A stretch of DNA of 21,911 nt, from positions 1 to 21,911 of the forward strand of contig JABANP010000694.1 of NCBI GenBank assembly GCA_013115135.1. Direction: 5' to 3'. The position numbers were made by a program, and so were the translations under genes. Origin of the DNA: Perkinsus olseni (Eukaryota; Perkinsozoa; Perkinsida; Perkinsidae). The stretch's first letter is position 1. The number at the start of each line of letters is the position of its first letter. Below the pieces are notes generated by a model. The model saw only the letters and a program-made list of their open reading frames with translations, was not told where the DNA came from and ran no database searches. Shown here piece by piece: positions 1,110 to 20,800 of this stretch.

Positions 1110-1353
1110 CTGATACCTGAATCGGACCGATTCAATCGGTTCGTGTCCGGCTACATGAGTTGTTAATGATTGAAGGGCTGGACACTCCCCGGACTCAGGA
1201 GTCCTGAGAATCGCTTCTCAACTGCAGCCGCGAAGTGTGTCGATGTCCCAGCTAGTTCGAGGTCTCAGTCTTTGCAGGCCATGCTGCATATGCCTAGATC
1301 GCCTTGTTGAACCAACACGTTCATCGGTACAGATTCGAGAGAGCTCAACTCAC
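1110..1353 (-). other. Intron of the LRR gene (244 nt)
   Basis: The minus-strand donor gtgagt follows codon Glu at 1354 directly, and a phase-0 AG acceptor ends at 1110. The right-arm intron (20557-20800) has the same length, 244 nt. The intron contains a 22-nt palindromic module (1119-1140) just inside the acceptor, an odd palindrome around 'ctcagga' near 1195, and a segment (about 1134-1180) repeated at 7554-7601. Confidence 0.6.
1119..1140. repeat. 22-nt palindromic module, T=gaatcggt
   Basis: Exact (T-1)(T')(T-1) structure. The right-arm copy at 20770-20791 has one changed outer base. Lies in the LRR intron, ending 8 nt from the predicted acceptor side. Confidence 0.9.
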
Positions 1354-1866
1354 CTCTTTGTTGTCCAGTAGGTCGAGTTCGGGCAGTTTCGACACAATCG
1401 CGGCACGGTAGTACAGTCGAGTCGCCGAACTGGCGCTTCCCATATTCACTAGGTCGTTATTCCCCTCCCCACAGTCTATAGAGAAGTCTTCTAGCTCGGG
1501 ATGGCCCTCAGCTAGGAGCGCCAGGAATCTCTGAAGATGCGAGAGGCTCTGCAGAACCCCTCGCATTAGACCATTATGGGACAGTCGCACTGACTTGAGA
1601 GATTGAAACTGACCGGCACCGGAGCGAGACATGCACGATTTCTCTGGCTCAGTGAGTCGAAACACCTTGGCGAGATTCTGGCAGAAACTCCTGTCCAAGA
1701 GGAGGCTCTCCAGCGTGAGGTAATTGAGACTCAGCGAGACGACGTCCCTTTGATACTTCTTCTTCTCCAAGGCATCCAATCCCCTGCCGTATATGTGCAA
1801 GTCCAAAGATTCCCCACGTTTAACGTAACCGTAACTGACCGCCACTCTGTCATATAAGAAGCTCAA
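1354..1866 (-). CDS. LRR protein gene, LRR-bearing exon (left copy, partial)
   Basis: About 170 codons of leucine-rich repeat protein. Typical LRR phrases are visible: VVSLSLNYLTLESLLLD, FQSLKSVRLSHNGLMRG and LQRFLALLAEGHPELEDFSID. It ends in an LRRcap-like LPELDLLDNKEV, the usual close of SDS22/LRRC-type repeats. The last codon is followed at once by a consensus GT donor (gtgagt, minus strand), so the exon ends at 1354. No ATG is convincing at the 5' end. The frame continues upstream, and a pyrimidine-rich tract plus 'acag' just before VAVSYG suggests an acceptor, so upstream exons probably exist. LRR proteins of this kind are usually intracellular protein-protein adaptors (phosphatase or cytoskeletal partners in the SDS22 group). 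The partner here is unknown. Confidence 0.65.
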
Positions 1867-1895
1867 ACTTGGATCCCCGAGGCCCTTTATGTCCT

Positions 1896-1917
1896 GCTCG
1901 GGCCCCGTGCCACGAAT
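1896..1917. repeat. Decayed 22-nt module, T about cccgtgc plus one base
   Basis: Left copy and right copy (19994-20015) have decayed at different bases. Combining them restores the module rule at all but the outermost base. Lies just upstream of the LRR exon. Confidence 0.55.
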
Positions 1918-2198
1918 CCTGGCACAAAACCTGGACGTTTCAAGGCTGACTCACTTCGGGCTACGCGGCCTGCCCTCCTCTAGGGCCTCGTGCCACTCAG
2001 CGATGACTTTGGATATTACCTACGAAGTTCAGACTTCTGATCCAACGACGCCTGACCAGGGTGTCGAATGGGCCTCCTTCTAGCCGCCCATGAGACGAGC
2101 CTCGTGATTCATAAGTTATGGTATTCCGGAACCAAATCCCGAAGCTAGGAAGAGCATTGGCTCTGCTGCAGCACTGATGCGGCCATCTTTTAGGTAGT

Positions 2199-2236
2199 GA
2201 GAGCTCATTGAAAGAGTCTCTTTCAATGGGCACTCG
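2199..2236. repeat. Long odd palindrome (37 bp in the mirror copy)
   Basis: Core 2206-2228 is perfect 11-1-11. The right-arm copy (19651-19687) has 18-bp arms around a single central base with one mismatch. Confidence 0.85.
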
Positions 2237-2239
2237 CTC

Positions 2240-2261
2240 AAGCCGGACCTGCTTAGCAGGT
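2240..2261. repeat. 22-nt palindromic module, T=aagcaggt
   Basis: One mismatch in the first unit. The right copy at 19625-19646 keeps the same structure. Sits immediately beside the 37-bp palindrome. Confidence 0.8.
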
Positions 2262-2295
2262 AGTACGGATGTATGGATATGCAGATGCATAGTCT

Positions 2296-2322
2296 GAGAC
2301 GATGGCGGGCCGTCATCGTCTC
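2296..2322. repeat. 27-bp odd palindrome (13-1-13)
   Basis: Left copy has one broken pair. The right copy (19565-19589) is a perfect 12-1-12, showing that the palindrome is ancestral and decaying on the left. Confidence 0.8.
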
Positions 2323-2343
2323 CGAGATAATTTCGCTGCAACC

Positions 2344-2379
2344 TCCATATCATATGGAGTCCATATTATGGACCATATG
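2344..2379. repeat. Nested pair of 22-nt modules, T=tccatatg then T=atatggac
   Basis: 36 nt = 22 + 14. Positions 2352-2373 are an exact module with T=atatggac. Deleting its extra 14 nt leaves an exact module with T=tccatatg. The mirror copy is 19507-19542, identical. Confidence 0.93.
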
Positions 2380-2395
2380 ACCTCGCGAGGAAAGT

Positions 2396-2414
2396 TGCTT
2401 TGTAATACAAAGCA
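2396..2414. repeat. 19-bp perfect odd palindrome (9-1-9)
   Basis: Arms tgctttgta / tacaaagca around one base; no third unit. Conserved near 19472-19490. Confidence 0.8.
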
Positions 2415-2422
2415 TCGACGGG

Positions 2423-2444
2423 GCTCGAGACTCGAGCCTCGAGT
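2423..2444. repeat. 22-nt palindromic module, T=gctcgagt; empty in right arm
   Basis: Exact module. The right arm at 19456-19463 has only the 8-bp site (as actcgagc), so the arms differ by exactly 14 nt here. Confidence 0.93.
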
Positions 2445-2601
2445 CACGGGACTCCCGTCACAGGAGCCTTCCGTCGGGATGTTGGCCTCCCACTTGAATG
2501 CGACCGGATGCCCGGTTGTTCGACGGTGACGACAGCTCGAGCGCGATACGATTATTCGTACTGCCTTTGCCGGGTAGAGAGCTGACCTGAGCGTTCCTAC
2601 C

Positions 2602-2623
2602 CGAACGTCACGTTCGGAACGTG
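2602..2623. repeat. 22-nt palindromic module, T=cgaacgtg
   Basis: Exact on the left. The right copy (about 19288-19308) has lost one base in the outer unit. Confidence 0.9.
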
Positions 2624-2765
2624 AATACCAAGACAAGGACTTACTTCCGTTTTGGACGCACCACCAGCTGTGACTCGAATACGTTCCATTGTATGGCAGT
2701 ATAACGAGAAGCGTTCCTGAGCTTCACAAATCAATCACCAGCGTGCATCGCTGCTAGCTCAGCTC

Positions 2766-2787
2766 AGTTCATCATGAACTGTTTATG
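2766..2787. repeat. 22-nt palindromic module, T=agttcatg
   Basis: One mismatch in the third unit (gtttatg for gttcatg). Same in the right arm, 19124-19145. Confidence 0.8.
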
Positions 2788-2952
2788 TTTGACCCGTTCA
2801 TGCACTTGAACTTTGAGTCAGCTGACAACTCATTACCGCTTTTGAAACAATGGATTAGTCCTGCCACTTGATGGTTCGACTGACTGTCTACCAGTGAAAG
2901 ACTCCCATTAATTGATCAAACTCAAGTAAACAAATTCCTTGTCTACTCTACC

Positions 2953-2974
2953 GTATGGTGGCCATACTACGGCC
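2953..2974. repeat. Decayed 22-nt module, T about gtatggcc
   Basis: Two mismatches on the left. The right copy at 18937-18958 has decayed at other bases, and the consensus of both restores most of the rule. Confidence 0.7.
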
Positions 2975-3067
2975 TGTGTCTCCAGCCGGACTAAATACTT
3001 TCAGCCTCTGGGATCCGTATCATCTACTATGTACAATCTGACGTATTATCGCTGAGCGTGCACTTCA

Positions 3068-3089
3068 ATATATCCGACATATTATATTG
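3068..3089. repeat. 22-nt palindromic module, T=atatatcg
   Basis: The left copy keeps the correct spacer base but has lost bases in the arms. The right copy (18822-18843) keeps all arms but has a changed spacer. Their consensus is an exact module. Confidence 0.75.
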
Positions 3090-3640
3090 ATGATGCTTCA
3101 GCGCAATATCTGGTCGTATTCACGAAGACAACGCTTGTGTGACTATCGATGCGTTCCAGCCAACATACTCTTTGTACTAGAATTAGCCAACTCGACTCTA
3201 CCTTTCCGCCTCGGAATAGTATCACTGTATAATGAGGTATTAGACATTACGCAGGAGAGATTATACGAATGGGAATAAACCTTGAACAATAAATGATAAC
3301 AATCACCTCACAGCACAGACAGTATTGGTCAATCATGTACTTGGATAACGACAGCTAGATTGAATATGAATCTTAGCCACACTAAGCTGTGTTGTGTTGA
3401 AAAGGGACAGTAATAATTGTGTATGTAAATCGTGACGATAATAGTATCGGTTCTTGTACACTCTTGGAGCTGCCTCTAACTTAGAGCTGCCTCTAGCCCA
3501 GCTTCAACCTTTCAGAGATTACCTCTGAGCCTGTCATCCGGTAACCATAACAACCAGATGAATTACCATAACGTCATCGGTGAAGTTGATCCCAATCTTA
3601 TATCCTCCCAGATATTAACAGTTCAATAACAGATCACTCA

Positions 3641-3662
3641 CTATGGCGGCCATAGTATGGCC
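3641..3662. repeat. 22-nt palindromic module, T=ctatggcc
   Basis: Exact in both arms (right copy 18559-18580). Confidence 0.92.
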
Positions 3663-3716
3663 TGAGGTAGCATCTCAGGCACCGGTTTCATTTCGCCACC
3701 TTTTGTTGCCACTAGA

Positions 3717-3755
3717 AGCGTTGGAGTTCCTACCACTGGTAGCAACTCCAACGCT
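3717..3755. repeat. 39-bp odd palindrome with one conserved mismatch pair
   Basis: 19-bp arms around one base. The same single mismatched position is present in the right copy (18247-18285). On the left it is followed by a further 15-bp odd palindrome of the ctggtag / ctaccag type. Confidence 0.85.
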
Positions 3756-3825
3756 GGTAGGCTACCAGCTCACAGAATCGAACCAACTTCATCAAAGTTC
3801 GTCGCCGATACCCGAAGAGACCCGA

Positions 3826-3847
3826 GTTCTTGGCAAGAACTTCTTGC
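3826..3847. repeat. 22-nt palindromic module, T=gttcttgc; empty in right arm
   Basis: Exact module. The right arm at 18169-18176 has only the 8-bp site, overlapping the last base of the stop codon of the 91-codon frame. In the left arm the module is followed by a further 152-nt left-only block. Confidence 0.9.
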
Positions 3848-3999
3848 TCGAGAACAGTTCCACAACACAATACCCTTTGCAACAGTGAAATAAATCTTGA
3901 AAAAGTGAACGTAAACTAAGTGAATCGGGTTAGTTGAAAGTTTCAACTTGAAACCCCACTGAGATAAGAGAAAACAGCTCGACCAGCCGCTCGGCAAGC
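3848..3999. mobile_element. 152-nt left-arm-only insertion with inverted ends
   Basis: Absent from the right arm, where gttcttgc is followed directly by tagtcg. The ends are weakly inverted (cttgctcgag at the 5' side against ctcggcaag at the 3' side). It contains its own exact 22-nt module at 3933-3954. No open frame of note. It could be a small non-autonomous transposon or the product of a rearrangement at the module; no clean target duplication is visible. Confidence 0.4.
3933..3954. repeat. 22-nt palindromic module, T=gttgaaac
   Basis: Exact; lies inside the 152-nt left-only insertion. Confidence 0.92.
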
Positions 4000-4274
4000 T
4001 AGTCGTACAATACACCAGTTATAGCGACATTCTGTGAGAATAAATCTTTGTGGACATCACTCAATGCTCTAACCTGCAGGACGACTTGATATTCCCAGCC
4101 TTCGCCCATCCTTTTCGAAGAAATGGACGGTGTGGCCACGAAGGACTGGTCCCCAGCCATCCCGGAGGAAGTGAAGAATAGAAGCTCGCTGCTGGCGTCA
4201 CCCCCGACTGGGAAAAATGGGGTCGAAGCTACGTGGAGGATATTTGGGGAAGTCGCAGTCACGCTCGATGTCAA
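3999..4274 (-). CDS. Conserved 91-codon frame (left copy), probable 3' exon
   Basis: Unrecognised protein of about 91 residues, ending ...NVAITGVLYD. The same frame is kept in the right arm (17894-18169) with few changes, and a broken version lies in the third copy (11445-11660). The text is rich in short beta-type segments (FFPVGGDASSELLFF, GEGWEYQVVLQVRAL) and has no signal peptide. No ATG begins it. The first codon offered is TTG and the frame stays open upstream, and 'gatcag' just before is a possible splice acceptor. I therefore read it as the last exon of a larger gene, or as a remnant. It lies downstream of the secreted-protein gene on the same strand. Function unknown. Confidence 0.45.
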   Translation of the reverse strand: MTSSVTATSPNILHVASTPFFPVGGDASSELLFFTSSGMAGDQSFVATPSISSKRMGEGWEYQVVLQVRALSDVHKDLFSQNVAITGVLYD

Positions 4275-5229
4275 ACTGATCTTTTCCCTTTTCCGGGGAA
4301 AGTTTTCCCGGATTCTGCCCCTTATTAAGCTCCGAAACCAGGACCTAGAGGAAAGACGTACCTAGTACAACGTACTATGTACAGCACGATTCATGAGGCG
4401 AGCTTCTATCGAGTCCTAATTGAGGTTTTGGAGTATTCCACCTCGTCAGCGACTGGCACGGCGGGAAACGCCGATGACGGTCCTTAGCGGCAGAATTGCT
4501 GCACAGTTCACGATGCGAAAGAGAGACACTGGTGCAACGCAAAACATGACCAGTTGGTGACAGAGGGACGCACTACCCTTTGAGAGGGTACGCACTACTG
4601 AGATGATATCAACCAGTTCCATTCGAAAAGAAAATGAAAAAAGACGAATCTAAGGCCTACTTGTCGGACTTACTCCGCAGAAGCATACACAAACTTGCGT
4701 CGCTGGATGAGGCAGGACTGTGATTCATACAGTCCGGCTGCTTACAAAACCCACCCACGCACGGCGCAGGTGGAGACGGACATGCGTCCAACAACGAGAA
4801 ACATGAAGTCTCTCGGATGACTCTCGACTTAGCACAGCTCTTCACACTGCAATGAAGCGATTCCATACCGAGCTGGCAGTGTAAGGCGATGTTGTGCCAT
4901 CGCTACCACACTGTGGTAACCACAGTACTCTGCAACGCCACCAGAACTCCTTTCGATACAGCAGTGCACGTCGTACGTCGTTTCATCACAGACTTGAGTT
5001 CACCATAAGATCTCGGAGAATTTTCTTCTGAACAAAATACCAGGCAGACGGTGCTGCTGGAGCACGGACTCATAATGAGGAGATAAAACGAATGATAACG
5101 GGGACGATCGAGTGATTTGTTGTCATACTCTTGAGCGAGAGATACACACCTGCCGTCGGATATTACGAACTACAGAATTACAGGCCACTGACTGCTCATC
5201 ATTCAGAGGCTCTGTGTAAAAAAACAGTT
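4275..5229. other. Non-coding region 3' of the secreted-protein gene
   Basis: About 950 nt between the 91-codon frame and the secreted-protein gene, present in all three copies with many indels between them. Small frames on both strands are not conserved across the copies, because 14-nt and other non-triplet indels break them. Contains one module (4904-4925) and a 6-6-6 stem (gcgatg / catcgc) next to it. No gene supported. Confidence 0.5.
4904..4925. repeat. 22-nt palindromic module, T=taccacag
   Basis: Exact; also in the right arm (about 17234-17255). The third copy at 12356-12363 has only one 8-bp site (taacacag) within a 36-nt shorter segment, so the comparison is not a clean 14-nt difference. 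Confidence 0.88.
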
Positions 5230-6033
5230 CTAGTTGACGATCCTGTCGAGAGGCAAGAGTATTGAGTTCCGGCCTGGAATCGGATAAGACATGTAGACCC
5301 TGTCCTCGTCCGCGAAGGCTAACACCCTAAAAAGGCGGTCTGCACGCTCTCCGTCGAAGTCGTCAATACCGCAGAGCTCAACTACGTCCTGCCGGAAGGT
5401 CACAATAGAGATTCCTCTAGTAGACCTTGTAAAGTACAACCTGTATGGAAAACGGCCTTCTTCTAGGCTGAATATTGCGCTGACGCCTTCAAGTCCGCGG
5501 CAACTGAAGTTAATTTCCACACGTCCATCAGAGTCGATGCTGGAGGTCACCTCGTTCAGATCTCCCGTGGTCTCACGAAATCTGAACACTCCCGGGGACA
5601 GAGTACGGGTATTCCAGAGAAACTGCAGCTGTTGGCCTTGAAAGCTAGCAAAGACAATTCCGAAGTCTGTGAATACGGGGTCGGTCAAATCTCCGTTCTC
5701 AAAATTAGCTTGCGGGAAGAGAAGTGAGACCGGCCGGAGGAACTTGCGCTGTCGGAGACCTCGGAAACGTCTACGACCAAAGTCGACGGTGTACTTCGTG
5801 CTGAAAAATCCATCAGTGTCTAATTGTGAAGACACTTCCCTGAGAGGGAATGATGTACCGCGGACTCGTCGTCCGTCTGGACCCTCGGCACTTAGGCTGA
5901 CATCACCGTCCTTGTCCACATGGTAGGCCAGACGTACGCCCTCTACTTCGGTAGCGAATTCGCCCGAGAGCTGGCATGTCGTAGTTACAAAAAGTGAAGT
6001 GAAGATCAGACAGGTCGAGAAAAGGTCCATCAT
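5230..6033 (-). CDS. Secreted protein of unknown family, 267 aa (left copy)
   Basis: Complete frame from ATG (6033) to stop (5230). The N-terminus MMDLFSTCLIFTSLFVTTTCQ is a signal peptide with probable cleavage after Cys/Gln near residue 21, so the product is likely secreted or sent to a surface compartment. No transmembrane segment follows. The rest alternates short beta-like strands (VRLAYHVDKDGDVSLSAEG, GIVFASFQGQQLQFLWNTRTLSPGVF, DGRVEINFSCRGLEGVSAIFSLEEG). It has a single repeated Cys pair (SCRG and LCGI) and ends VYMSYPIPGRNSILLPLDRIVN. I do not recognise a named domain. The style recalls lineage-specific secreted families of parasitic protists; that is inference. Eleven residues differ from the right-arm copy. 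A third copy at 12682-13180 has lost its first 100 or so residues. Confidence 0.8.
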   Translation of the reverse strand: MMDLFSTCLIFTSLFVTTTCQLSGEFATEVEGVRLAYHVDKDGDVSLSAEGPDGRRVRGTSFPLREVSSQLDTDGFFSTKYTVDFGRRRFRGLRQRKFLRPVSLLFPQANFENGDLTDPVFTDFGIVFASFQGQQLQFLWNTRTLSPGVFRFRETTGDLNEVTSSIDSDGRVEINFSCRGLEGVSAIFSLEEGRFPYRLYFTRSTRGISIVTFRQDVVELCGIDDFDGERADRLFRVLAFADEDRVYMSYPIPGRNSILLPLDRIVN

Positions 6034-6103
6034 GGCGAAAGAGTGGAGTTGGTGTCCAGAAAGGAGCTACAGAGGGTGGGAGACTGATTTGAGAATGGTG
6101 AGG

Positions 6104-6126
6104 CAACCTGGCAGGTTGAAACCTGC
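6104..6126. repeat. 22-nt palindromic module, T=caacctgc (one extra base)
   Basis: The left copy has one extra A. The right copy at 16036-16057 is exact. Lies 70-95 nt upstream of the secreted-protein start codon. Confidence 0.9.
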
Positions 6127-6202
6127 TAGAACAGAACAGAGCTAATACCATTTCATAAGTTTTGTTCAACTCAGAGTCATCCGCCAGCCAAGGAGAGCAA
6201 CA

Positions 6203-6224
6203 GTATCTAGTAGATACTATCTAC
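6203..6224. repeat. 22-nt palindromic module, T=gtatctac
   Basis: Exact in both arms (right copy 15943-15964). Confidence 0.93.
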
Positions 6225-6468
6225 CGAGCGTACCACTTGATCAAAGTCCGATGATCGTCAGCAAAGCCACAGCCGGCGCACGCAAGTGCAAAGCTAGCAA
6301 CGCTATGCGCTATAGTGACGACGTAGTGCTGACTATTCGCTATGTAAAATTTGCCGCCCGGCTCAGTACTACTCAGCTATTAGACTATCATTGCTGCGTA
6401 TCACTTTGTCTGCTACTGCGTATTATTAGTTCCGGATAACCGTCCGACCCCATTCTGCGCATTCCCTC

Positions 6469-6817
6469 GCGCACTATAGAGACAACTACCTCCATTTCTG
6501 CTGCGTACACACCTAGCCCCCTGTACGCCTTTGTTCGCTGCGCGTTCGTCCGTGCCAGCAAAAACTGCGTTCCTTGTCATGTAGGGAACACAGTGTGAGA
6601 CTGTTGCATTATAACTCAGTACAGTGTGGCTATTTGAGATGGCGGTCAAAGCAGGAACCAGCTGATCTTGTTGAGAATTCGGTGCGAGCGTATCTTCAAT
6701 AGCATGACAAGGAATGCAAGTGTTCGCTGGGACGAATGAACGCACAGCGAACAGAGGCGCAAAGGGCAAGGTGGGTACGCAGCGGCAATGGAGGTAGTTG
6801 TCATTTCAGTGCACTCG
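6469..6817. mobile_element. Foldback (MITE-like) element, left copy
   Basis: About 112-bp imperfect terminal inverted repeats (about 6469-6580 and 6704-6815) flank a spacer of about 123 bp. The arms share phrases such as gacaactacctccatt, the gttcgctg...gcgttc segment and ccttgtcatg. No transposase frame. Open frames through it (118 and 136 codons in the two arms) are by-products of the repeats. The outer right end abuts a 22-nt module at 6818. It was present before the arms duplicated (mirror copy 15361-15699). I cannot name a superfamily or see a target duplication. Confidence 0.65.
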
Positions 6818-6839
6818 TGTGCTTCAAGCACAGTGCTTG
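6818..6839. repeat. 22-nt palindromic module, T=tgtgcttg
   Basis: Exact in both arms (right copy 15336-15357). Directly abuts the foldback element. Confidence 0.93.
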
Positions 6840-6932
6840 AGTGCGTTTTAGAGAACTTTATAGAATCTCATTGTCGATCAACACCACTCGAGTCAAGCTT
6901 TTTCCTACTCCTCGACCCCCGTCTCGATTAGT

Positions 6933-6979
6933 CACGGCTGTACTTAGCTACTTGCTGCAAGTAGCTAAGTACAGCCGTG
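6933..6979. repeat. 47-bp perfect hairpin (23-1-23)
   Basis: Perfect inverted repeat around a single T. The right-arm copy (15197-15241) is also perfect over 22-bp arms, with the central base G. A weaker stem (gtgcaag / cttgcac) overlaps its downstream end. Confidence 0.92.
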
Positions 6980-7122
6980 CAAGCAACTTGCACATGTATG
7001 AGCACAGCAGCAGACGTTCTTTGACGGAAACTGGACGCGCTCGAGGGAGTTCTTCGCGGGGGTAAGACGCATCGTATCAACCACAGGTCTACTCTGAGGG
7101 GCGCTGTAGTCGGGCGAGGAAT

Positions 7123-7144
7123 AGTCAAACTTTGACGGTCAAAG
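7123..7144. repeat. 22-nt palindromic module, T about cgtcaaag, at arm breakpoint
   Basis: One outer base deviates (a for c). Inverted-repeat similarity ends at 7126, inside the first unit. Confidence 0.8.
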
Positions 7145-7843
7145 CGAATCCTGAAAACAGTAAATTGTTGGCAATGAGTAGCAAGTCTCGAGCTCTTTGT
7201 ATGTGTCGTGGTGACGCTGACGCGCAGCTCAACTAAAGAGCGTGCATTTTTCTTAGGCAAATCCGAAAAATGAAGATTTTTTGTTCGCATCAATCATCTG
7301 GATTTGAAGGTTGGGAGGTATATACAATTTTAAGTATATTGCGCCCGTATTGCGGGCGGTCAGTAAGGCCCGTGCCGGCACTAAATATACCGAACTTGGA
7401 ACTTGGCTAGCAGCACGGGGGTGACAAAGTGAAAGAGCCGCTGCAAGCACCGCTCATGACGTGGTTGGGCGAGAACTGACCATTCTGCAACGTGCGGGGT
7501 AGGCCGCCTGTTGCTCATAGTCCACGCAAGGCGAGAAGGAGTGTGAAGTCAGCCAATCGGTTCGTGTCCGCCGGACACTGTCCGGCTACATGAGCTGCTA
7601 ATGATAGAAGGACCGTCGGTGACCACAACGGTCAATGCCACCTGTGGTCGGCTGGACTACAGCCCTGGTACTGATCGGATGATCACACCTGGGTACGTAT
7701 GCGTATCCTGAGTTCGGACTCACTGAGGTGAGCTTACTCAAGGCGAGAGTTTGACTTGTGAGTTGAATAAAGGCCTGAGATGGCGCATCCGAGCTTGAGT
7801 TACCGACTCTGATACACATGGTTGAGTTATGAGTCTGAGCAGC
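7145..7843. other. Unassigned DNA between left arm and retrotransposon
   Basis: No supported gene. Contains a segment (7554-7601) repeated from the LRR intron, and from about 7690 onward a low-complexity tract of degenerate gagt/tgagt/actc words. That tract continues into the retrotransposon end and may be its 3' untranslated region. The exact 3' end of the element is not determinable by eye: no poly-A tail or clear target duplication was found. Confidence 0.4.
7564..7585. repeat. 22-nt palindromic module, T=gtgtccgg; empty in both LRR introns
   Basis: Exact module. The related segments in the LRR introns (1143-1150 and 20760-20767) have only the 8-bp site, a difference of exactly 14 nt. Confidence 0.93.
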
Positions 7844-7923: not shown

Positions 7924-9393
7924 TCAAGCTCGTGATTCAATAGGATGATTCGTGAGTGAGTGCTCAAGTACTTCAGTTGTAGCTCTTGAGTCAGATTCAA
8001 GGGCCTTGGTCTCGACCTTACTGATGTCCCAGTCCCGGTGGAGCCATTGCTTAGAAGCGCGCACACGGACAGATTCGGAAATCGGCTTCAACCCGCTGAT
8101 TCGGTACATGACTGATGTCGGTGTGCTTTTCAGCGCGCCCCACATCAGCTGCTCCATAAAAGCCTGAAGCTGTATGCATTTTTTCTCGAACCTCTCTCTC
8201 CCCGCGACGGTGCCCCAGGTGGGAGCGCCGAACGTCAGACGAGGGGTCATCACTGAGTTCCAGATCCAACGCAGCTGCTGCGAGCCAAGGCCCCAGCGGC
8301 GTCCCACGAGAGAGCGCAGCCTGATTGCCAGCTTGCGTATACGGGCTATGCTCTCAGTAACGTTAGTGTTCCAGCTCAGGTTTTGATCGAGCCATAGTCC
8401 TAGAAACTTGATGCACTTCTTGACCGATCCTGCCAGCGCGGCATGCCCCCTGTCGCGCAGGGCTGATCGAACTTCGTCAGCCCAGGCGTCCACCCAAATC
8501 TCATTTTTCTCCTCCGAGAGGGTCAGGTCTACGGACCTAGCCCAGGTATCCGTTACTTCCCATACACGTATGACCGTGTTCACAAGGCTGAGAAGGCCAG
8601 GGGCCCTCAGAGCTATTGCCGAATCGTCAGCGTATATCACTGGTTTGACGATGATCCCGTGGAGTGGATCATTCAGGGCGAGAAGTTTCTCTCCTAGTTC
8701 GATAGTGCTGTAGCTATACAACCTTGGCGAGAGAATAGAGCCCTGTTGGATCCCCTTCACGGAGTACCGTCGGACCCCTCCAAAGCTCGACCATTGCCCA
8801 CTGAGGAACGAGCGCACCAATTTCGCAAAACCACAGTTGGCTAAACGGCCAACAGCTGCACAAATTGGGTCGTGGCTAATGGAGTTAAACGCCGCCACCG
8901 CATCAAACGCCGCGACGGCCCGCAGTCCTAGGCTCCCAGCATTGTTTTCTAGAGCACTTGAGAGATGCTTCCATGCTGTGTCGGTAGACCTATTGGATGC
9001 GAATCCATGCAGGAAGGGAGGGAGGGCGCCTATGGACCCCTCAAGCCGTCCGCTTATGACTGCTTCACAGACTTTGGCAAGTGTCAGCGAGAGCGACACG
9101 GGTCTAAATTTTGACCAACCCGTTCGGTTTCCTTTCTTCCTCAGCAGAATTACCTCAGCGCCCTGAAAGCACCTTGGGAAATATTGGAAACGGAGGATCG
9201 CTGTCATGAGCAGGCTCAAAGCGGCAGCCCAACGGCCGTTACATCTCCAAGCTACGTGGATGTGTTCGTATGCGACGCCGTCAGATCCAGATGCTCGGCC
9301 TTTGGGGCGAGCAGCTATAGCACTTTCGAGCTCTTCTCGAGAGACTGGTCCTCCTATATCCTCAAGTGAGGCCCGAGTGCTGGGAGTGTACAC
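7924..9393 (-). pseudogene. LINE ORF2, reverse transcriptase part
   Basis: 489 residues of reverse transcriptase in a frame shifted by one relative to the endonuclease part upstream. Motifs in order: FRPVSL near residue 96, the first catalytic Asp in AAFDAVAAFNSI (D164), KGIQQGSILSP near 213, catalytic YADD at 254-257, and KFLGLWLDQNLSW near 329. A LINE thumb region follows with FGAPTWG and TPTSVMYRISGLKPISES. The enzyme would copy element RNA at a nicked genomic target. The nominal start is a GTG inside the protein, so this is not an independent gene; the frame stays open upstream to about 9455. The C-terminus runs into gagt-rich sequence, and no C-terminal zinc knuckle is seen. Confidence 0.88.
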
Positions 9394-9394
9394 C

Positions 9395-11660: not shown

Positions 11661-11667
11661 GCTCGAT

Positions 11668-11689
11668 GTCGAACAGTTTGCCTCAAACT
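11668..11689. repeat. 22-nt palindromic module, T=gtcaaact; empty in both arms
   Basis: Two mismatches. Arms have the single site at 4270-4277 and 17891-17898, a clean 14-nt difference. Confidence 0.85.
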
Positions 11690-11891
11690 GATCTTTTCCC
11701 TTATCCGGGAAAAGTTTTCGGAAAACTTTCGGGAAAATTTCCCATCTTCTGCCCCTTATTAAGCTCCGAAACCAGGACCCAGAGGAAAGAAGTACCTAGT
11801 ACAACGTACTACGTACAGCACGATTCATGAGGCAAGCTTCTATCGAGTCCTAATTGAGGTTTTGGAGTATTCCACCTCGTCAGCGACTGGC

Positions 11892-11913
11892 ACGGCGGCC
11901 CGCCGTCGGCGGG
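11892..11913. repeat. 22-nt palindromic module, T=acggcggg; empty in both arms
   Basis: Exact module. Arms have the single site at 4458-4465 and 17703-17710, a clean 14-nt difference. Confidence 0.95.
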
Positions 11914-12681
11914 AAACGCCGGTGACGGTCCTTAGCCGCAGAACTGCTGCAGCAGTTCACGATGCTAAAGAGAGACACTGGTGCAACGCAAAACATGGCC
12001 AGTTGGTGACAGAGGGACGCACTACCCTTTGAGAGGGTACGCACTACTGAGATGATATCAACCAGTTCCCTTCGAAAAAGAGAAGATGAAAAAAGACGAA
12101 TCTGAGGCCTACTTGTCGGACTTACTCCGCGAAAGCATACACAAACTTGCGTCGCTGGATGAGGCAGGACTGTGATTCATACAGTCCGGCTGCTTACAAA
12201 ACCCACCCACGCACGGCGCAGGTGGAGACGGACATGCGTCCAACAACGAGAAATGAAGTCTCTCGGATTACCCCTGGCTGGCTTCTCGGAGAGGCCCTCT
12301 CCTCAGCATGGCCGTTGACACTGCAATGTAGCGACTGCATATCGAGCTGGCAGTGTAACACAGTACTCTGCAAAGCCACCAGTACTCCTTTCGATACAGC
12401 AGTGCTTTGTTTCATCACAGACTTGAGAAGAAAATACCAGGTAGAAGATGGTGCTTGATGACGGACTGATAGCGAGGAGAAAAAATGATAACGGGGACGA
12501 TCGAGTGACATATCGTCATATTGTCATTGGGGCCGGTTGTGAGAGACCTCGGTGTGAGAGTGTGAGAGACATACAGAGGCCAACCATCTGTGAAAGGTGA
12601 CCTGTCGTCGAGTAATATGAACAACAGAATTACAGACCACTGAGTGCTGATCATTCTGAGACTCTGCGTGAAGAATCAGGT
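11914..12681. other. Non-coding part of the third copy
   Basis: Corresponds to the 3' flank of the secreted gene in the arms. Open frames on both strands (about 100 codons) are not shared with the arms. One further module lies at 12281-12302. No gene supported. Confidence 0.5.
12281..12302. repeat. 22-nt palindromic module, T=gcctctcc
   Basis: One mismatch in the first unit. Falls in a segment 24 nt longer than in the arms, so the comparison with the arms is not clean. Confidence 0.75.
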
Positions 12682-13180
12682 CTAGTTGGCGATCCTGTCG
12701 AGAGGCAAGAGTGCTGAGCTCCGGCCCGGAATCGGATAAGGCACGTAGATTCTGTCCTCGTCCGCGAAGAGCACCACTTGAAACAGGTCTGCACCCTCTC
12801 CGATACCGCAGAGCTCGACTACCTGCTCTCGGAAGGTCACAATGGAGCTACCTTCGGTAGACCGTAGAAAGTATACCCTGATTGGATCACGGCCTTGTTC
12901 TAGGCTGAATGTTGCGCTGACGCCTTCAAGTCCGCGACAACTGACGTTGATTTCCACACGTCCATCGGAGCCGATGCGATAGGTCAGCTCGTTCATACCA
13001 CCCCTTCTCTGACGAAACCTGAATACGCCCGGAGACAGACTACGGGTATTCCAGATGAACTCCAGTTCTTGGCCTTGAAGGCGGGCTAAGATAATCCCGA
13101 AGTCTGTGATTGTGAGGTCGGTCAGATCTCCTCTCTCAAGATTAGCATCCGTGAGGAGGCGTGAGACCGGTAGGACGAGT
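12682..13180 (-). pseudogene. Truncated third copy of the secreted protein
   Basis: Reads in one open minus-strand frame from PVSRLLTDANLERGDLTD through FIWNTRSLSPGVFRFRQ to the end VPYPIPGRSSALLPLDRIAN, matching the last 160 or so residues of the arm proteins. The signal peptide and the first 100 or so residues are missing: similarity ends near 13172 and AT-rich minisatellite follows. A short internal deletion removes the DFDGE segment near the C-terminus. An internal Met at 12996 could start translation, but no signal peptide would be made. Amino-acid divergence is clearly greater than between the arms. Confidence 0.8.
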
Positions 13181-13203
13181 ACAAAATTTAACTGTAAAGT
13201 GAA

Positions 13204-13590
13204 GGCCAGTCACAGAGGAAAGGCTCTTGAAAATCTATTAAAAAATCCAATTATAAACTTAAGGCCAGTCACAGAGGAAAGGCTCTTGAAAATCTATTAA
13301 AAAATTCAATTATAAACTTGAGGCCAGTCACAGAGGAAAGGCTCTCGGGGTTTTATTACAAAACTTAACTGTAAAGTCAAGGCCAGTCACAGAGGAAAGG
13401 CTCTTAGAAATTTATTAATAAAATTCAATTATAAACTTGAGGCCAGAGGAAAGGCTCTTAGGAATTTATTAATAAAATTAACTATAAGGTCAAGGCCAGT
13501 CACAGAGGAAAGGCTCTTGAAAATCTATTAAAAAATTCAATTATAAACTTGAGGCCAGTCACAGAGGAAAGGCTCTTAGGTAATCAGAGC
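13204..13590. repeat. Minisatellite, about 59-bp unit, 7 copies
   Basis: Units begin 'ggccagt' at about 13204, 13263, 13322, 13381, 13441, 13494 and 13553 (spacings 59, 59, 59, 60, 53, 59; one unit carries a short deletion). Each unit has a conserved half containing cacagaggaaaggctct (with an agag / ctct stem) and a variable AT-rich half. Two unit subtypes alternate irregularly (tgaaaatctatt and ttaggaatttatt). No spacer-type variation, so not a CRISPR array. Confidence 0.95.
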
Positions 13591-14298
13591 AACACACACG
13601 ACATCCAGCCATCCGCACTACAATTCAATCCCCATCCATTTCCAATCCACTTCTATCGGTCAGGGGACATAACTGACTTCCGGACGCCACTTCCATGATC
13701 GAGGAGAGCATCAAGTCAGCAACTAGTCGGGATGAATCGTGCTAAGGGAGAAGAGCGGAGGTAGCCAGACTTCAGGACCTTTAGACGTTTCGGAGCGGCG
13801 CAAACATGAACTTGGAGGCCAAGATTGATCTTACGAATCTTGCTCTATCACAGGGCGCGCGCTTTTGTGAGTGCGCACTTTTTACGAGACAGGTCTGTTG
13901 GGGGTAACTCCCAAAATCCAAGGAAGCGTTTTCAGGGATCTGCATTACTTGGGCAACAGTTCGGGTTTCTGGTTGACTTGGGTAACAGTTCCGGGATCGG
14001 GTTGCCCTGTCCGGTTTCGGGAGGGGTTTCTGGTTTCCCGTTCCTGCCTTCACCCGCAATCCAGGGGTTTCTTGTATTGCTTTTGCCTCCCTGTCGCACG
14101 CGCTTCCTTGGATTCTGTACCTTTCCCTTGGATTTTGTACCTCACCCCTGTTGGGCACCTAAGTGAGACTGCGGGGCCGAAAGCGAAAGTTGTCGCCGAC
14201 GACTTGTCGGCATTACCTCCAATCTTACCAACTACTAAACCCAGCTCGAAAGCAGCATTGCGCATGCTGGCAGGCAAGCCGGCATCCTTCAAAGGCAT

Positions 14299-14610: not shown

Positions 14611-15196
14611 TGAAGTATTCACTTTGAAGTACTAGAATATAGCAGAGTAAGGGACAGATGCATACAAATTCAGCGTTAGAGAGAATAGGACTGGGCGAGC
14701 GACTGCACGGTATCACTGATTTAAAGTTGAACCCAAAAGAGTTCCTTCGGATTAGCGGTTACGCTGCGAAAGCGCGGTAGGTGTTGTGCTCACTGACAGT
14801 CGATAGCAGTAATGTGCCCAGAAGGGAGAGACACCGGCTTTCACTGATTCAACCTCTGATTAGCGTAGTCGAGCTCGGACTGGCGGAACCACCTCCCGTT
14901 ATCACACCATACGTAGTTTTAATGCACAGGCTCAGAAATAGGGAAAATCTAGTGTGCTCACGTGAGTACCACAGATTTACAGAGAAACCTCAGGAATGGA
15001 GATATGCCTCAGAATGCGGCCCGGACCACAGGATAAACTAATTTTCCGACTATTCCTCGCCCGACTACAGCGCCCCTCAGAGTAGACCTGTGGTTGATAC
15101 GATGCGTCTTACCCCCGCGAAGAACTCCCTCGAGCGCGTCCAGTTTCCGTCAAAATAACGTCTGCTGCTGTGCTCATACATGTGCAAGTTGCTTGC

Positions 15197-15241
15197 ACGG
15201 CTGTACTTAGCTACTTGCGGCAAGTAGCTAAGTACAGCCGT
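15197..15241. repeat. 45-bp perfect hairpin, right copy
   Basis: 22-bp arms around a single G; mirror of the left hairpin at 6933-6979, with arm sequence fully kept. Confidence 0.92.
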
Positions 15242-15335
15242 AACTAATCGAGACGGGGGTCGAAGAGTAGGGAAAAGCTGGACTCGAGTGGTGTTGATCG
15301 ACAATGAGACTCTATAAAGTTATCTAAAACGTACT

Positions 15336-15357
15336 CAAGCACTGTGCTTGAAGCACA
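15336..15357. repeat. 22-nt palindromic module, right copy (T=tgtgcttg)
   Basis: Exact; mirror of 6818-6839, abutting the foldback element. Confidence 0.93.
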
Positions 15358-15360
15358 CGA

Positions 15361-15699
15361 GTGTACTGAAATGACAACTACCTCCATTGCCGCTGCGTAC
15401 CCACCCTGCCCTTTGCGCCTCTGTTCGCTGTGCGTTCGTTCGAACACGTGCGTTCCTTGTCATGCTATTGAAGATACGCTCGCACCGAATTCTCGACAAG
15501 AACAGCTGGTTCCTGCTTTGACCGCCATCTCAAATAGCCACACTGTACTGAGTTATAATGCAACAGTCTCACACTGTGTTCCCTATATGACAAGGAACGC
15601 AGTATTTACTGGCACGGACGAACGCGCAGCGAACAAAGGCGTACAGGGGGCTAGGTGTGTACGCAGCAGAAATGGAGGTAGTTGTCTCTATCGTGCGCG
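15361..15699. mobile_element. Foldback (MITE-like) element, right copy
   Basis: Inverted repeats at about 15361-15472 and 15588-15699. The 136-codon plus-strand frame through it (15344-15754) is much longer than in the mirror copy, where it is broken, so I do not call a gene. Confidence 0.65.
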
Positions 15700-16127
15700 A
15701 GGGAATGCGCAGAATGGGGTCGGACGGTTATCTGGAACTAATAATACGCAGTAGCAGACAAGGTGATAAGCAGCAATGATAATCTAATAGCTGAGTAGTA
15801 CTGAGCCGGGCGGCAAATTTTACATAGCGAATAGTCAGCACTACGTAGTCACTATAGCGTATAGCGTTGCTAGCTTTGCACTTGCGTGCGCCGGCTATAG
15901 CATTGCTGACGATCATTGAATTTTGATCAAGAGGTACGCTCGGTAGATAGTATCTACTAGATACTGTTGCTCTCATTGGCTGGCGGATGACTCTGAGTTC
16001 AACAAAACTACTAAAATGGTATTAGCTCTGTTCTAGCAGGTTCAACCTGCCAGGTTGCCTCACCATTCCCAAATCAGTCTCCCACCCTCTGTAGCTTCTT
16101 TCTGGACAGCAAATCCACTCTCTCGCC
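15700..16127. promoter_or_regulatory. 5' flank of the secreted-protein gene (right copy)
   Basis: Contains modules at 15943-15964 (T=gtatctac, exact) and 16036-16057 (T=caacctgc, exact). No clear core promoter motif seen. Assigned by position only. Confidence 0.35.
16036..16057. repeat. 22-nt palindromic module, right copy (T=caacctgc)
   Basis: Exact here, while the left mirror has one inserted base. 71 nt upstream of the secreted-protein ATG. Confidence 0.93.
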
Positions 16128-16931
16128 ATGATGGACCTTTTCTCGACCTGTCTCATCTTCACTTCACTCTTTGTAACTACGACATGCCAGCTCTCGGGCG
16201 AATTCGTTACCGAAGTAGAAGGCGTGCGTCTGGCCTACCATGTGGACAAGGACGGTGATGTCAGCCTAAGTGCCGAGGGTCCAAACGGGCGACGAGTCCG
16301 CAGTACATCATTTCCTCTCAGGGAAGTGTCTTCACAATTAGACACTGATGGATTTTTCAGCACGAGGTACACCGTCGACTTTGGTCGCAGACGTTTCCGA
16401 GGTCTCCGACAGCGCAAGTTCCTCCGGCCGGTCTCACTTCTCTTCCCGCAAGCTAATCTTGAGAACGGAGATTTGACCGACCCCGTATTCACAGACTTCG
16501 GAATTGTCTTTGCTAGCTTTCAAGGCCAACAGCTGCAGTTTCTCTGGAATACCCGTACTCTGTCTCCGGGAGTATTCAGATTTCGTGAGACCACGGGAGA
16601 TCTGAACGAGGTGACCTCCAGCATCGACTCTGATGGACGTGTGGAAATTAACGTCAGTTGCCGCGGACATGAAGGCGTCGGCGCAATATTCAGCCTGGAA
16701 GAAGGCCGCTTTCCATACAGGTTGTACTTTACAAGGTCTACTGGAGGTAGCTCTATTGTGACCTTCCGGCAGGACGTAGTTGAGCTCTGCGGTATTGAAG
16801 ACTTCGACGGAGAGCGTGCAGACCGCCTTTTTAGGGTGTTAGCCTTCGCGGACGAGGACAGGGTCTACATGTCTTATCCGATTCCAGGCCGGAACTCAAT
16901 ACTCTTGCCTCTCGACAGGATCGTCAACTAG
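16128..16931 (+). CDS. Secreted protein of unknown family, 267 aa (right copy)
   Basis: Same architecture as the left copy: signal peptide at residues 1 to about 21, then a beta-rich extracellular-type body without a further membrane segment. The start is the first of two adjacent Met codons. Differences from the left copy counted by eye: A/V and D/N early, G/S, K/R, F/L, then F/V, L/H, S/G, R/G, I/S and D/E. They are spread along the chain, with no stop or frameshift in either copy. That pattern fits two retained genes evolving separately, or two alleles. The role is unknown; likely exported from the cell. Confidence 0.82.
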   Translation: MMDLFSTCLIFTSLFVTTTCQLSGEFVTEVEGVRLAYHVDKDGDVSLSAEGPNGRRVRSTSFPLREVSSQLDTDGFFSTRYTVDFGRRRFRGLRQRKFLRPVSLLFPQANLENGDLTDPVFTDFGIVFASFQGQQLQFLWNTRTLSPGVFRFRETTGDLNEVTSSIDSDGRVEINVSCRGHEGVGAIFSLEEGRFPYRLYFTRSTGGSSIVTFRQDVVELCGIEDFDGERADRLFRVLAFADEDRVYMSYPIPGRNSILLPLDRIVN

Positions 16932-17893
16932 AACTGTTTTTTTCACACAGAGCCTCTGAATGATGAGCAGTCAGTGGCCTGTAATTCTGTAGTTCGTAAT
17001 ATCCGACGGCAGGTGTGTATCTCTCGCTCAAGAGTATGACAACAAATCACTCGATCGTCCCCGTTATCATTCGTTTTATCTCCTCATTATGAGTCCGTGC
17101 TTCAGCAGCACCGTCTGCCTGGTATTTTGTTCAGAAGAAAATTCTCCGAGATCTTATGGTGAACTCAAGTCTGTGATGAAACGACGTACGACGTGCACTT
17201 CTGTTTCGAAAGGAGTACTGGTGGCGTTGCAGAGTACTGTGGTTACCACAGTGTGGTAGCGATGGCACAACATCGCCTTACACTGCCAGCTCGGTATGCA
17301 ATCGCTTCATTGCAGTGTCAAGAGCTGTGCTAAGCCGAGAGTAATCCGAGAGACTTTATGTTTCTCGTTGTTGGACGCATGTCCGTCTCCACCTGCATGG
17401 AAAGTGCGTGGGTGGGTTTTGTAAGCAGCCGGACTGTATGAATCACAGTCCTACCTCATCCAGCGACGCAAGTTTGTGTATGCTTTTGCGGAGTAAGTCC
17501 GACAAGTAGGCCTTAGATTCGTCTTTTTCATCTTCTCTTTTTCGAATGGAACTGGTTGATATCATCTCAGTAGTGCGTACCCTCTCAAAGGGTAGTGCGT
17601 CCCTCTGTCACCAACTGGTCATGTTTTGCGTTGCACCAGTGTCTCTCTTTCGCATCGTGAACTGTGCAGCAATTCTGCGGCTAAGGACCGTCACCGGCGT
17701 TTCCCGCCGTGCCAGTCGCTGACGAGGTGGAATACTCCAAAACCTCAATTAGGACTCGATAGAAGCTCGCCTCATGAATCGTGCTGTACATAGTACGTTG
17801 TACTAGGTACGTCTTTCCTCTAGGTCCTGGTTTCGGAGCTTAATAAGGGGCAGAAGCCGGGAAAACTTTCCCCGGAAAAGGGAAAAGATCAGT
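16932..17893. other. Non-coding 3' region of the secreted gene (right copy)
   Basis: Mirror of 4275-5229. Includes the module at about 17234-17255 and empty 8-bp sites at 17703-17710 and 17891-17898, where the third copy has modules. A 60-codon plus frame from 17546 exists, but its counterpart is broken in the third copy. No gene supported. Confidence 0.5.
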
Positions 17894-18169
17894 TTGACAT
17901 CGAGCGTGACTGCGACTTCCCCAAATATCCTCCACGTAGCTTCGACCTCATTTTTCCCAGTCGGGGGTGACGCCAGTAGCGAGCTCCTATTTTTCACTTC
18001 CTCTGGGACGGCTGGGGACCAGTCCTTCATGGCCACGCCGTTCATTTCTTTGAAAAGGAAGGGCGAAGGCTGGGAATATCAAGTCGTCCTGCAGGTTAGA
18101 GCATTGAGTAATGCCTATGAAGATTTATTCTCACAGAATGTTGCTATAACTGGTGTATTTTACGACTAG
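17894..18169 (+). CDS. Conserved 91-codon frame (right copy), probable 3' exon
   Basis: Mirror of 3999-4274 with few amino-acid changes (for example M/T, V/M, DVHK/NAYE). The frame is open upstream of the nominal TTG start and 'gatcag' precedes it, consistent with a splice acceptor. Stop TAG at 18167-18169, whose last base begins an 8-bp site that carries a module in the left arm. The empty site at 17891-17898 overlaps the 5' edge. Function not recognised. Confidence 0.45.
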   Translation: MTSSVTATSPNILHVASTSFFPVGGDASSELLFFTSSGTAGDQSFMATPFISLKRKGEGWEYQVVLQVRALSNAYEDLFSQNVAITGVFYD

Positions 18170-19993
18170 CAAGAACTCGGGTCTCTTCGGGTATCGGCGA
18201 CGAACTTTGATGAAGTCGGTTCGATTCTGTGAGCTGGTAGCCTACAAGCGTTGGAGTTGCTACCAGTGGTAGGAACTCCAACGCTTCTAGTGGCAACAGA
18301 AGGTGGCGAAATGAAACCGGTGCCTGAGAGAATGCTTATGCTATGCCACTCCACTGTCTCTTCGTCTGTGCACGCATGCGCATCAGCCTGGCTGTTGGTC
18401 GCACGCATGCGCGCCAGTCTTATTACTAGTTATGATAGTACGTACTTATCTCTTTCCCCTATAGTGTTGCCAGTCGGACTCGGGCGAAGCGGGCACGCAC
18501 TCTATCTCCTCATGCGTCGGGGAAATCGGACCCACAACAACATTATCATGCTACCTCAGGCCATACTATGGCCGCCATAGTGAGTGATCTGTTATTGAAC
18601 TGTTAATATCTGAGAGGAGATAAGATTGGGATCAACTTCACCGATGACGTTATGGTAATTCATCTGGTTGTTATGGTTACCGGATGACAGGCACAGAGGG
18701 GATCTCTGAAAGGTTGAAGCTGGGCTAGAGGCAGCTCCACGAGTATGTTGGCTGGAACGCATCGATAGTCACACAAGCGTTGTCTTCGTGAATACGACCA
18801 GATATTGCGCTGAAGCATCATCGATATAATATATCTGATATATTGAAGTGCACGCTCAGCGATAATACGTCAGATTGTACATAGTAGATGATACGGATCC
18901 CAGAGGCTGAAAGTATTTAGTCCGGCTGGAGGCACAGGCCATAGTATGACCACCATACGGTAGAGTAGACAAGGAATTTATTTACTTGAGTTTGATCAAT
19001 TAATGGGAGTCTTTCACTGGTAGACAGTCAGTCGAACCATCAAGTGGCAGGACTAATCCATTGTTTCAAAAACGGTAATGAGGTGTCAGCTGACTCAAAG
19101 TTCAAGTTCATGAACGGGTCAAACATAAACAGTTCATGATGAACTGAGCTAAGCTAGCAGCGATGCACGCTGATGATTGATTTGTGAAGCTCAGGAACGC
19201 TTTTCGTTATACTGCCATACAATGGAACATATTCGAGTCACAGCAGGTGGTGCGTCCAAAACGGAAGTAAGTCCTCGTCTTGGTATTCACTTCCGAACGT
19301 GACGTTCGGGCAGGAACGCTCTCTACCCGGCAAAGGCAGTACGAATAATCGTATCGCGCTCGAGCTGTCGTCACCGTCGAACAACCGGCCACTCGGTCGC
19401 ATTCAAGTGGGAGGCCAACATCCCGACGGAAGGCTCCTGTGACGGGAGTCCCGTGACTCGAGCCCCGTCGATCCTTTGTATTACAAAGCAACTTTCCTCG
19501 CGAGGTCATATGGTCCATAATATGGACTCCATATGATATGGAGGTTGCAGCGAAATTATCTCGTAGACGATGGCGGCCCGCCATCGTCTCAGACTATGCA
19601 TCTGCATATCCATACATCCGTACTACCTGCTAAGCAGGTCCGGCTTGAGCGAGAGCCCATTGAAAGAGACTCTTTCAATGAGCTCTCACTCTCTAAAAGA
19701 TGGCCGCATCAGTGCTGCAACAGAGCTAATGCTCTTCCTAGCTTCGGGATTTGATTCCGGAATACCATAACTTATGAATCACGTGGTTCGTCTCATGTGG
19801 GCGGCTAGAAGGAGGCCCATTCGACACCCTGGTCAGGCGTCGTTGGATCAGCGGCGCATATCCCAGATCAGAGGTCTAAACTTCGTAGGTAATATCCAAA
19901 GTCATCGCTGAGTGGCACGAGGCCCTAGAGGAGGGCATGCCGCGTAGCCCGAAGTGAGTCAGCCTTGAAACGTCCAGGTTTTGTGACTCGGCT
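18170..19993. other. Long hairpin-rich non-coding tract (right copy)
   Basis: Mirror of 1918-3830. Holds module copies at 18559-18580, 18822-18843, 18937-18958, 19124-19145, 19288-19308, 19507-19542 and 19625-19646, and long palindromes at 18247-18285, 19565-19589 and 19651-19687. A right-only block of about 215 nt (18334-18549) has possible 5-bp direct repeats 'atgct' at its ends and two copies of a gcatgcgc-type word. Open frames here are not conserved. Confidence 0.6.
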
Positions 19994-20043
19994 CCCCGTG
20001 GCACGGGTCTCGTGCAGGACATGAAGGACCCCGGGGTCCAAGT

Positions 20044-20556
20044 TCGAGTTTCTTATATAACAGAGTGGCGGTCAGGTACGGTTACGTTAAACGTGGGGAA
20101 TCTTTGGACTTGCACATATACGGCAGGGGATTGGATGCCTTGGAGAAGAAGAAGTATCAAAGGAACGTCGTTTCGCTGAGTCTCAATTACCTCACGCTGG
20201 AGAGCCTCCTCTTGGACAAGAGTTTCTGCCAGAATCTAGCCAAGGTGTTTCGACTCACTGAGCCAGAGAAATCGTGCATGTCTTGCTCCGGTGCCGGTCA
20301 GTTTCAATCTCTCAAGTCAGTGCGACTGTCCCATAATGGTCTAATGCGAGGTGTTCCGGAGGGCCTCTCGCATCTCCAGAGATTCCTGGCGCTCCTAGCT
20401 GAGAGCCACCCCGAGCTAGAAGACTTCTCTATAGACTGTGGGGAGGGGAATAACGACCTAGTGAATATGGGAAGCGCTAGTTCGGCGACTCGACTGTACT
20501 ACCGTGCCGCGATTGTATCGAAACTGCCCGAACTCGACCTACTAGACAACAAAGAG
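20044..20556 (+). CDS. LRR protein gene, LRR-bearing exon (right copy, partial)
   Basis: Mirror of 1354-1866. The frame is open before the GTG at 20065 (reads ...SSSFLYNRVAVRYGYVK), so an upstream exon is likely; an acceptor-like pyrimidine tract with 'acag' precedes AGTGGCGG. LRR phrases are as in the left copy. The LRRcap-like LPELDLLDNKE is followed by the donor gtgagt at 20557. Only a few residues differ from the left copy (for example VSYG/VRYG, QRDV/QRNV, LDRS/LDKS, MSRS/MSCS). Confidence 0.65.
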
Positions 20557-20800
20557 GTGAGTTGAGCTCTCTCGAATCTGTACCGATGAACGTGTTGGTT
20601 CGACAAGGCGATCTAGACATATGCAGCATGGCCTGCAAAGACTGAGACCTCGAACTAGCTGGGACATCGACACACTTCGCGGCTGCAGTTGAGAAGCGAT
20701 TCTCAGGACTCCTGAGTCCGGAGAGTGTCCAGCCCTTTAATCATTAACAGCTCATGTAGCCGGACACGACCCGATTGAATCGGTCCGATTCAGGTATCAG
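20557..20800 (+). other. Intron of the LRR gene, right copy (244 nt)
   Basis: GT donor gtgagt and AG acceptor (...gtatcag). Phase 0 on both sides and the same length as the left intron. Contains the module copy at 20770-20791 and the empty site at 20760-20767. Confidence 0.6.

Follow-up and report, generated by a model that had tools for sequence, protein, structure and literature searches.

A 22-nucleotide module of fixed construction

The stretch analysed here (the window) comprises 21,911 nucleotides of Perkinsus olseni DNA and is contig C661 of a 61.5-Mb genome of 968 contigs. Two inverted arms, 1-7126 and 15048-21907, form a large duplication in this contig and are ~97% alike, and a third copy of positions 4020-5665 is found at 11404-13102 (78-97% alike by pieces). 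Distributed along the window are 22-nucleotide modules with unrelated sequences that obey one rule. Each is obtained from an 8-bp sequence, T, by writing T without its last base, then its full reverse complement (T'), and then T without its first base, that is, T(1-7)T'T(2-8).

We scanned the window for this rule with T lengths from 4 to 14. Exact modules numbered 7, 1, 0, 0, 20, 0, 0, 0, 0, 0 and 0 for the successive lengths, and length 8 alone stood out; when up to one mismatch was allowed, 3, 33 and 2 modules were found at lengths 7, 8 and 9, respectively. No length-8 module was present at ≤2 mismatches in five random sequences with the dinucleotide make-up of the window. The inverted arms carry mirror copies, so that the 20 exact modules represent 15 distinct T; distinct T numbered 24 at ≤1 mismatch and 30 at ≤2 mismatches. 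Perfect palindromes with arms of at least 7 bases had a 1-nucleotide centre in 376 cases; every other centre size between 0 and 12 accounted for 16-43 cases. The 1-nucleotide palindrome centres of the modules follow from the rule itself.

The first-pass annotation of this DNA, in which the rule was proposed, had anticipated a spike at length 8, and the clean excess over randomised sequence bears this out. Fifteen of the 16 exact T that it listed were recovered directly, one of them (caacctgc) in reverse-complement form at 16036-16057. The sixteenth, tccatatg, became visible only after a younger nested module (ATATGGAC) had been collapsed to T, and belongs to an older module at 2344-2379. The T sequences are unrelated, as it stated, but its description of 26 loci as independent calls for qualification, given that the inverted arms are so alike and that 20 exact modules reduce to 15 distinct T.

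Occurrence in the genome

The genome was sampled as 20 stretches of 10 kb (200 kb) chosen by contig number, 19 of them being the first 10 kb of a contig. At length 8, this sample contained 63 exact modules, 109 at ≤1 mismatch and 156 at ≤2 mismatches. For the same three classes, length 7 gave 1, 6 and 36 modules, and length 9 gave 0, 1 and 3. Three of the 20 stretches (L017, L022 and L026) contained no module at ≤2 mismatches, and 50 kb of Escherichia coli K-12 gave 0, 0 and 0 modules in the three classes. Extrapolation to 61.5 Mb, from a sample made up mostly of contig ends, gives ~19,000 exact modules and ~33,500 at ≤1 mismatch. The module is a real feature of many contigs. Stretch L022 contains a tandem satellite with a unit of ~101 bases, as deduced from CACTCA spacings of 44/45 and 56/57.

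Copies of the module do not share sequence in the way that members of a repeat or a miniature inverted-repeat transposable element (MITE) family would. There were 155 distinct T at ≤1 mismatch in 280 kb, and the flanks were without consensus. Derivation from one dispersed family, which the first-pass annotation had named among the outcomes that would undo its proposal, is not supported by these unrelated T and flanks. Long open frames held 5 of 142 modules, where 17.7% were expected (p=4e-7, a value that is too small since mirror copies were left unmerged). Such depletion is expected of frame-breaking insertions under selection.

The module as a 14-bp insertion

The flanks of the modules were compared with those of other stretches (130 comparisons), of which 61 were scored as empty, 66 as containing the module and 3 as undecided. 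Many of the rows with a module are mirror or duplicate copies, and several low-identity empty rows are diverged sites that prove nothing. Clean paralogues with plain T were found for the modules at 2423 (other arm, 99.2% identity), 11452 and 11892 (copies in both arms, 93-97%) and 12281 (stretch L043, 96%) of the window. Outside it, L023 2609 was matched by plain T at L023 1379 (98.9%, T=CCCAGATA), and L029 434 and 989 by plain T in L032 (98% and 94%). Both T(1-7) and T(2-8) are present in the modules, so the 8-bp target is now duplicated where close paralogues of several modules have it once.

We then surveyed 160 insertion sites between paralogues of at least 85% identity. All nine insertions of 14 bp were modules at ≤2 mismatches. 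There were no insertions of 13 or 16 bp, none of the four of 15 bp lay in a module, and six further insertions of 1-9 bases lay within modules. None of the 16 insertions of 25 bp or more that were listed had an 8-bp duplication. Modules were also found nested in one another: collapsing exact modules to T exposed an older exact module in 4 of 118 cases (two being mirror copies), compared to 1 of 590 random 14-bp deletions. Modules are common to paralogous contigs, and some have decayed by point changes. Since plain-T paralogues, 14-bp insertions and nested modules all occur, the event is T -> T(1-7)T'T(2-8), and it has taken place at unrelated sites and at different times.

Target preference and scar size

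The first-pass annotation saw no consensus among the T sequences, and here it was mistaken, as a weak preference for T at position 2 and A at position 7 is present (67 and 59, respectively, of the 155 distinct T at ≤1 mismatch). Taken together, these bases occupied 126 of 310 positions against an expected fraction of 0.243 (p=1.8e-10), with p=1.5e-5 for exact modules only and 1.9e-13 at ≤2 mismatches. T at position 1 and A at position 8 were depleted (42/310, p=3e-6). The preference agrees with nTnnnnAn, published for hAT transposons: the hAT element Hermes favours nTnnnnAn and generates 8-bp duplications (PMC10368747). Modules and Hermes share the target length of 8 bp and the bases preferred at positions 2 (T) and 7 (A).

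We also counted the centre lengths between the two target copies, using complementary end bases; unfiltered counts were uneven (for example 803 at length 21), probably due to tandem repeats. A centre of 8 bases was seen 129 times against 4.5 expected. None of the other lengths from 2 to 40 came near this, the next highest being 12 and 12 against 4.8 and 6.5. An excess of 6-base direct repeats at distances of 44, 45, 56 and 57 was considered as a set of further scar sizes and rejected, as the rows came repeatedly from the L022 tandem repeat, which was dropped from counts made after that scan.

hAT elements in the genome

A profile search of the contigs of this genome gave at least 21 matches to Dimer_Tnp_hAT, all over the cut-off. 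Family 1 begins with CAGTGGCGGCGCCAGGG, is ~2.68 kb long and has two ends in the genome. Its copies on contigs C816 and C941 are 99.8% identical over 1,910 and 99.4% over 807 aligned bases, and each element is flanked by one pair of exact 8-bp duplications (CCTGATTC/CCTGATTC and TAGGGCTT/TAGGGCTT). The two elements are recent, because they are nearly identical. Ten paralogous places span these two insertion sites, and the element was absent from all nine that were read; exact T was present in six (L071, L072 and L074-L077), and T with one or two changes in three. The transposase frame, 595 residues of which are open in the piece read, contains DUF4371 and Dimer_Tnp_hAT. Unlike Hermes, it gave no sequence match to solved structures, and the family that makes the scars may be another one.

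Family 2 ends in TAGAGATGGGCAAA, and 14 exact ends of this kind occur in the genome. At nine distinct ends the adjoining octamers, judged by eye, had T at position 2 in seven cases and A at position 7 in three. In addition, a 616-bp repeat, hAT-like at its end (TACACATGGGC / TATACATGGGC) and differently flanked in its two copies, contains two modules at L030:2563 and 2662, and at L039:1226 and 1325. As both copies carry the two modules, duplication of the repeat probably postdates the scars.

Origin of the modules

We consider it very probable that the module is the excision scar of a hAT-type DNA transposon, with hairpin-capped flanks rejoined via the complementary copies of the duplicated T. 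The element would insert and duplicate its target to give T-element-T, as is seen for two hAT elements here. On excision, following published chemistry, hAT transposase would nick one base outside each end, and the flanks would be sealed as hairpins with a 1-nucleotide loop. The left flank would then read t1..t7-t8'-t7'..t1', and the right flank, in the sense of the top strand, t8'..t1'-t2..t8. Opening of the hairpins several bases from the tip would release strands that are complementary over T, because both flanks derive from the same T, and annealing followed by trimming and fill-in would produce t1..t7+T'+t2..t8. Any pair of nicks would lead to the same product, provided that the opened arms overlap, and a single length could therefore arise without a measuring device. 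Such a pathway would account for the 1-nucleotide centres, the missing last and first bases, the fixed length of 8 and the single product. In this host, the likeliest source of a single product would be hairpins that are opened well off the tip and then annealed. Palindromes with a 1-nucleotide centre and longer arms (15-22 bases) that lack a second copy of T were observed at 6933-6978 and 15196-15241 of the window, L021:5685-5715 and L023:2788-2818, and these are possibly single opened hairpins.

The first-pass annotation knew of no described class with this rule. In fact, an 8-bp target site duplication combined with hAT excision through hairpin-capped flanks yields the rule, and what is unusual against known biology is the uniformity and number of the modules. 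Excision of Ac/Ds (hAT) has been described as cleavage at the 5' flanking nucleotide, with hairpins and microhomology joining (PMC1978519), and the scars left by it include palindromes that have at their centre the complement of the nucleotide adjoining the transposon (PMC5873905). Modules resemble these footprints, known from yeast, Candida and plants, in the duplicated target, in P-nucleotide palindromes with such a complementary base at the centre and in microhomology joining. They differ in that Ac/Ds gives mostly short palindromes and usually several products, whereas the full 8-base product is nearly the only one found here, its sites numbering in the thousands when the sample is extrapolated. 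In yeast, arms of 3 or more were reported in 47% of hAT scars, with lengths up to 20 (PMC5873905). A duplicated target also guides joining after excision of mPing (PMC4561436), which belongs to the PIF/Harbinger superfamily (PMC2836001). Unlike the events considered here, mPing repair is called precise, and no module is mentioned in the available part of that text (PMC4561436).

A number of results weigh against hAT excision as the source. The classical Ac/Ds-type 2-base scar, T(1-7)-t8'-t1'-T(2-8), was seen 4 times as against 6.5 in randomised sequence. In Candida, 128 clones yielded 28 scar types, with arms of at most 3 and two types making up 53 clones (PMC5873905), and in one Arabidopsis line 11 of 17 scars were the same short one (PMC1978519). 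No module was found at the nine paralogous family 1 sites or in ten paralogous stretches of five family 2 flanks. Altogether 12 hAT flanks were sought and 19 paralogous stretches read for seven of them, and none of these gave a site occupied by the element in one copy and by a module in the other. The family 1 duplications do not fit the T2/A7 preference, and those of family 2 were read on one side only, its other end not having been found. A de novo search of 222 kb for inverted ends with an 8-bp duplication gave 1 candidate, and a single randomised copy likewise gave 1; with less stringent ends the numbers were 12 and 10. Recognised hAT copies are also few, by the counts of domain matches and family ends given above; for each recognised element there are roughly a thousand modules, a ratio in which non-autonomous elements are uncounted. 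Finally, loss of Ku or of ordinary end joining is not supported as the cause of uniform repair, since a Ku-like exon is present at G000:C523:70226-70354, just over the Pfam cut-off. Many scars beside few elements could be left by a few elements that jump repeatedly and rarely multiply, or by families that are now extinct.

The small number of recognised elements beside thousands of modules, the hAT target preference and the uniform product would suit a domesticated hAT-like transposase that forms hairpins at 8-bp sites with no mobile element involved, the module being written directly by repair. Kat1, going by the title of a report, is said to be a domesticated hAT transposase that makes hairpins. 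We regard this origin as unlikely, as two copies of T lie in the module, a state that normally requires a target-duplicating insertion, and as two nearly identical, recent hAT elements with 8-bp duplications are present. Scars of a different DNA transposon superfamily with 8-bp duplications, such as Merlin, whose duplication is 8 bp long, appear very unlikely. Merlin has been reported in Alveolata, in a paper whose available text names Perkinsus four times (PMC8101967); however, flank hairpins offset by one base and nTnnnnAn are described for hAT, and nothing similar was met for Merlin in the literature surveyed, which was available in part.

Explanations that dispense with a transposase fare worse. 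The product is formally that of a double strand switch, in which replication copies an 8-base stretch inverted and then direct. Template switching should nevertheless generate variable lengths, yet exact modules of lengths 7 and 9 numbered 1 and 0 against 63 at length 8, and the T2/A7 preference is left unaccounted for; we judge it highly improbable. The large inverted duplication that takes up most of the window contig might raise the suspicion of chance, low complexity or an assembly artefact. This is scarcely credible for modules that are missing from randomised sequence and from E. coli, that are common to paralogous contigs and decayed by point changes, and that are depleted in long open frames.

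Excision of hAT-type elements, our preferred origin, bears on how hairpin-capped hAT donor sites are repaired. Earlier assays comprised tens to hundreds of events, and this genome would provide thousands of independent outcomes with one product, which would suggest that hairpins are opened and annealed in one specific manner. Jumps by cut-and-paste elements could also be counted and dated from the modules, even though these elements leave no copy. We lean towards the view that in this protist lineage re-annealing of opened hairpins via the duplicated target is near-deterministic, that the genome keeps a record, legible and datable, of tens of thousands of visits by rarely multiplying elements, and that 14-bp palindromic insertions are a standing class of mutation in the species. 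A partial survey of the literature, covering titles and the beginnings of abstracts, gave no description of this class of scar or of such scars in Perkinsus, which is weak evidence of absence. Individual palindromic hAT scars are known; that survey brought to light no case of one full-target product on such a scale. The scan employs a rule without a needed sequence, and is applicable to any genome.

Modules and other features of the window

Table 1. Modules in the window, with the state of paralogous copies
Position	Feature	T	Paralogous copies
1119-1140	exact module	GAATCGGT	stretch 7554-7611 uninterrupted, CAATCGGT (one base different)
2344-2379	older module split by younger nested one	TCCATATG	exact once 2352-2373 is collapsed
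2352-2373	exact module nested in older one	ATATGGAC	mirror copy 19513-19534
2423-2444	exact module	GCTCGAGT	plain T in other arm (19396-19523)
2602-2623	exact module	CGAACGTG	other-arm copy one base short
3641-3662	exact module	CTATGGCC	younger module inside it in L041, L042
3826-3847	exact module	GTTCTTGC	plain T in L042 (84%), small score margin
3933-3954	exact module	GTTGAAAC	uninterrupted site GCTGAAAC in L041, L042
4904-4925	exact module	TACCACAG	mirror 17237-17258; L045 (81%) uninterrupted, CACCACAG
6203-6224	exact module	GTATCTAC	mirror 15943-15964; L046 also has module
6818-6839	exact module	TGTGCTTG	mirror 15336-15357
7564-7585	exact module	GTGTCCGG	plain GTGTCCGG in stretch 1120-1176
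11452-11473	exact module	TCTAACCT	plain T at 4020-4135, 18033-18148 and in L042
11892-11913	exact module	ACGGCGGG	plain T at 4398-4524, 17644-17770
12281-12302	one-mismatch module	GCCTCTCC	plain T in L043; module in L044
14299-14320	exact module	GTCTAAAA	
15336-15357	exact module		mirror of 6818-6839
15943-15964	exact module		mirror of 6203-6224
16036-16057	exact module	GCAGGTTG	left-arm copy one base longer
17237-17258	exact module		mirror of 4904-4925
18559-18580	exact module		mirror of 3641-3662
19513-19534	exact module		mirror of 2352-2373

The region 7924-11292 (minus strand), inside which no module was found at ≤3 mismatches, contains non-LTR (long terminal repeat) retrotransposon-like genes in adjoining frames. 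These encode a reverse transcriptase, an endonuclease (Exo_endo_phos_2) and a 189-aa frame without a Pfam match. A 97% copy of the endonuclease is present on contig C231. A tandem array with a period of 59 bases occupies positions 13154-13635.

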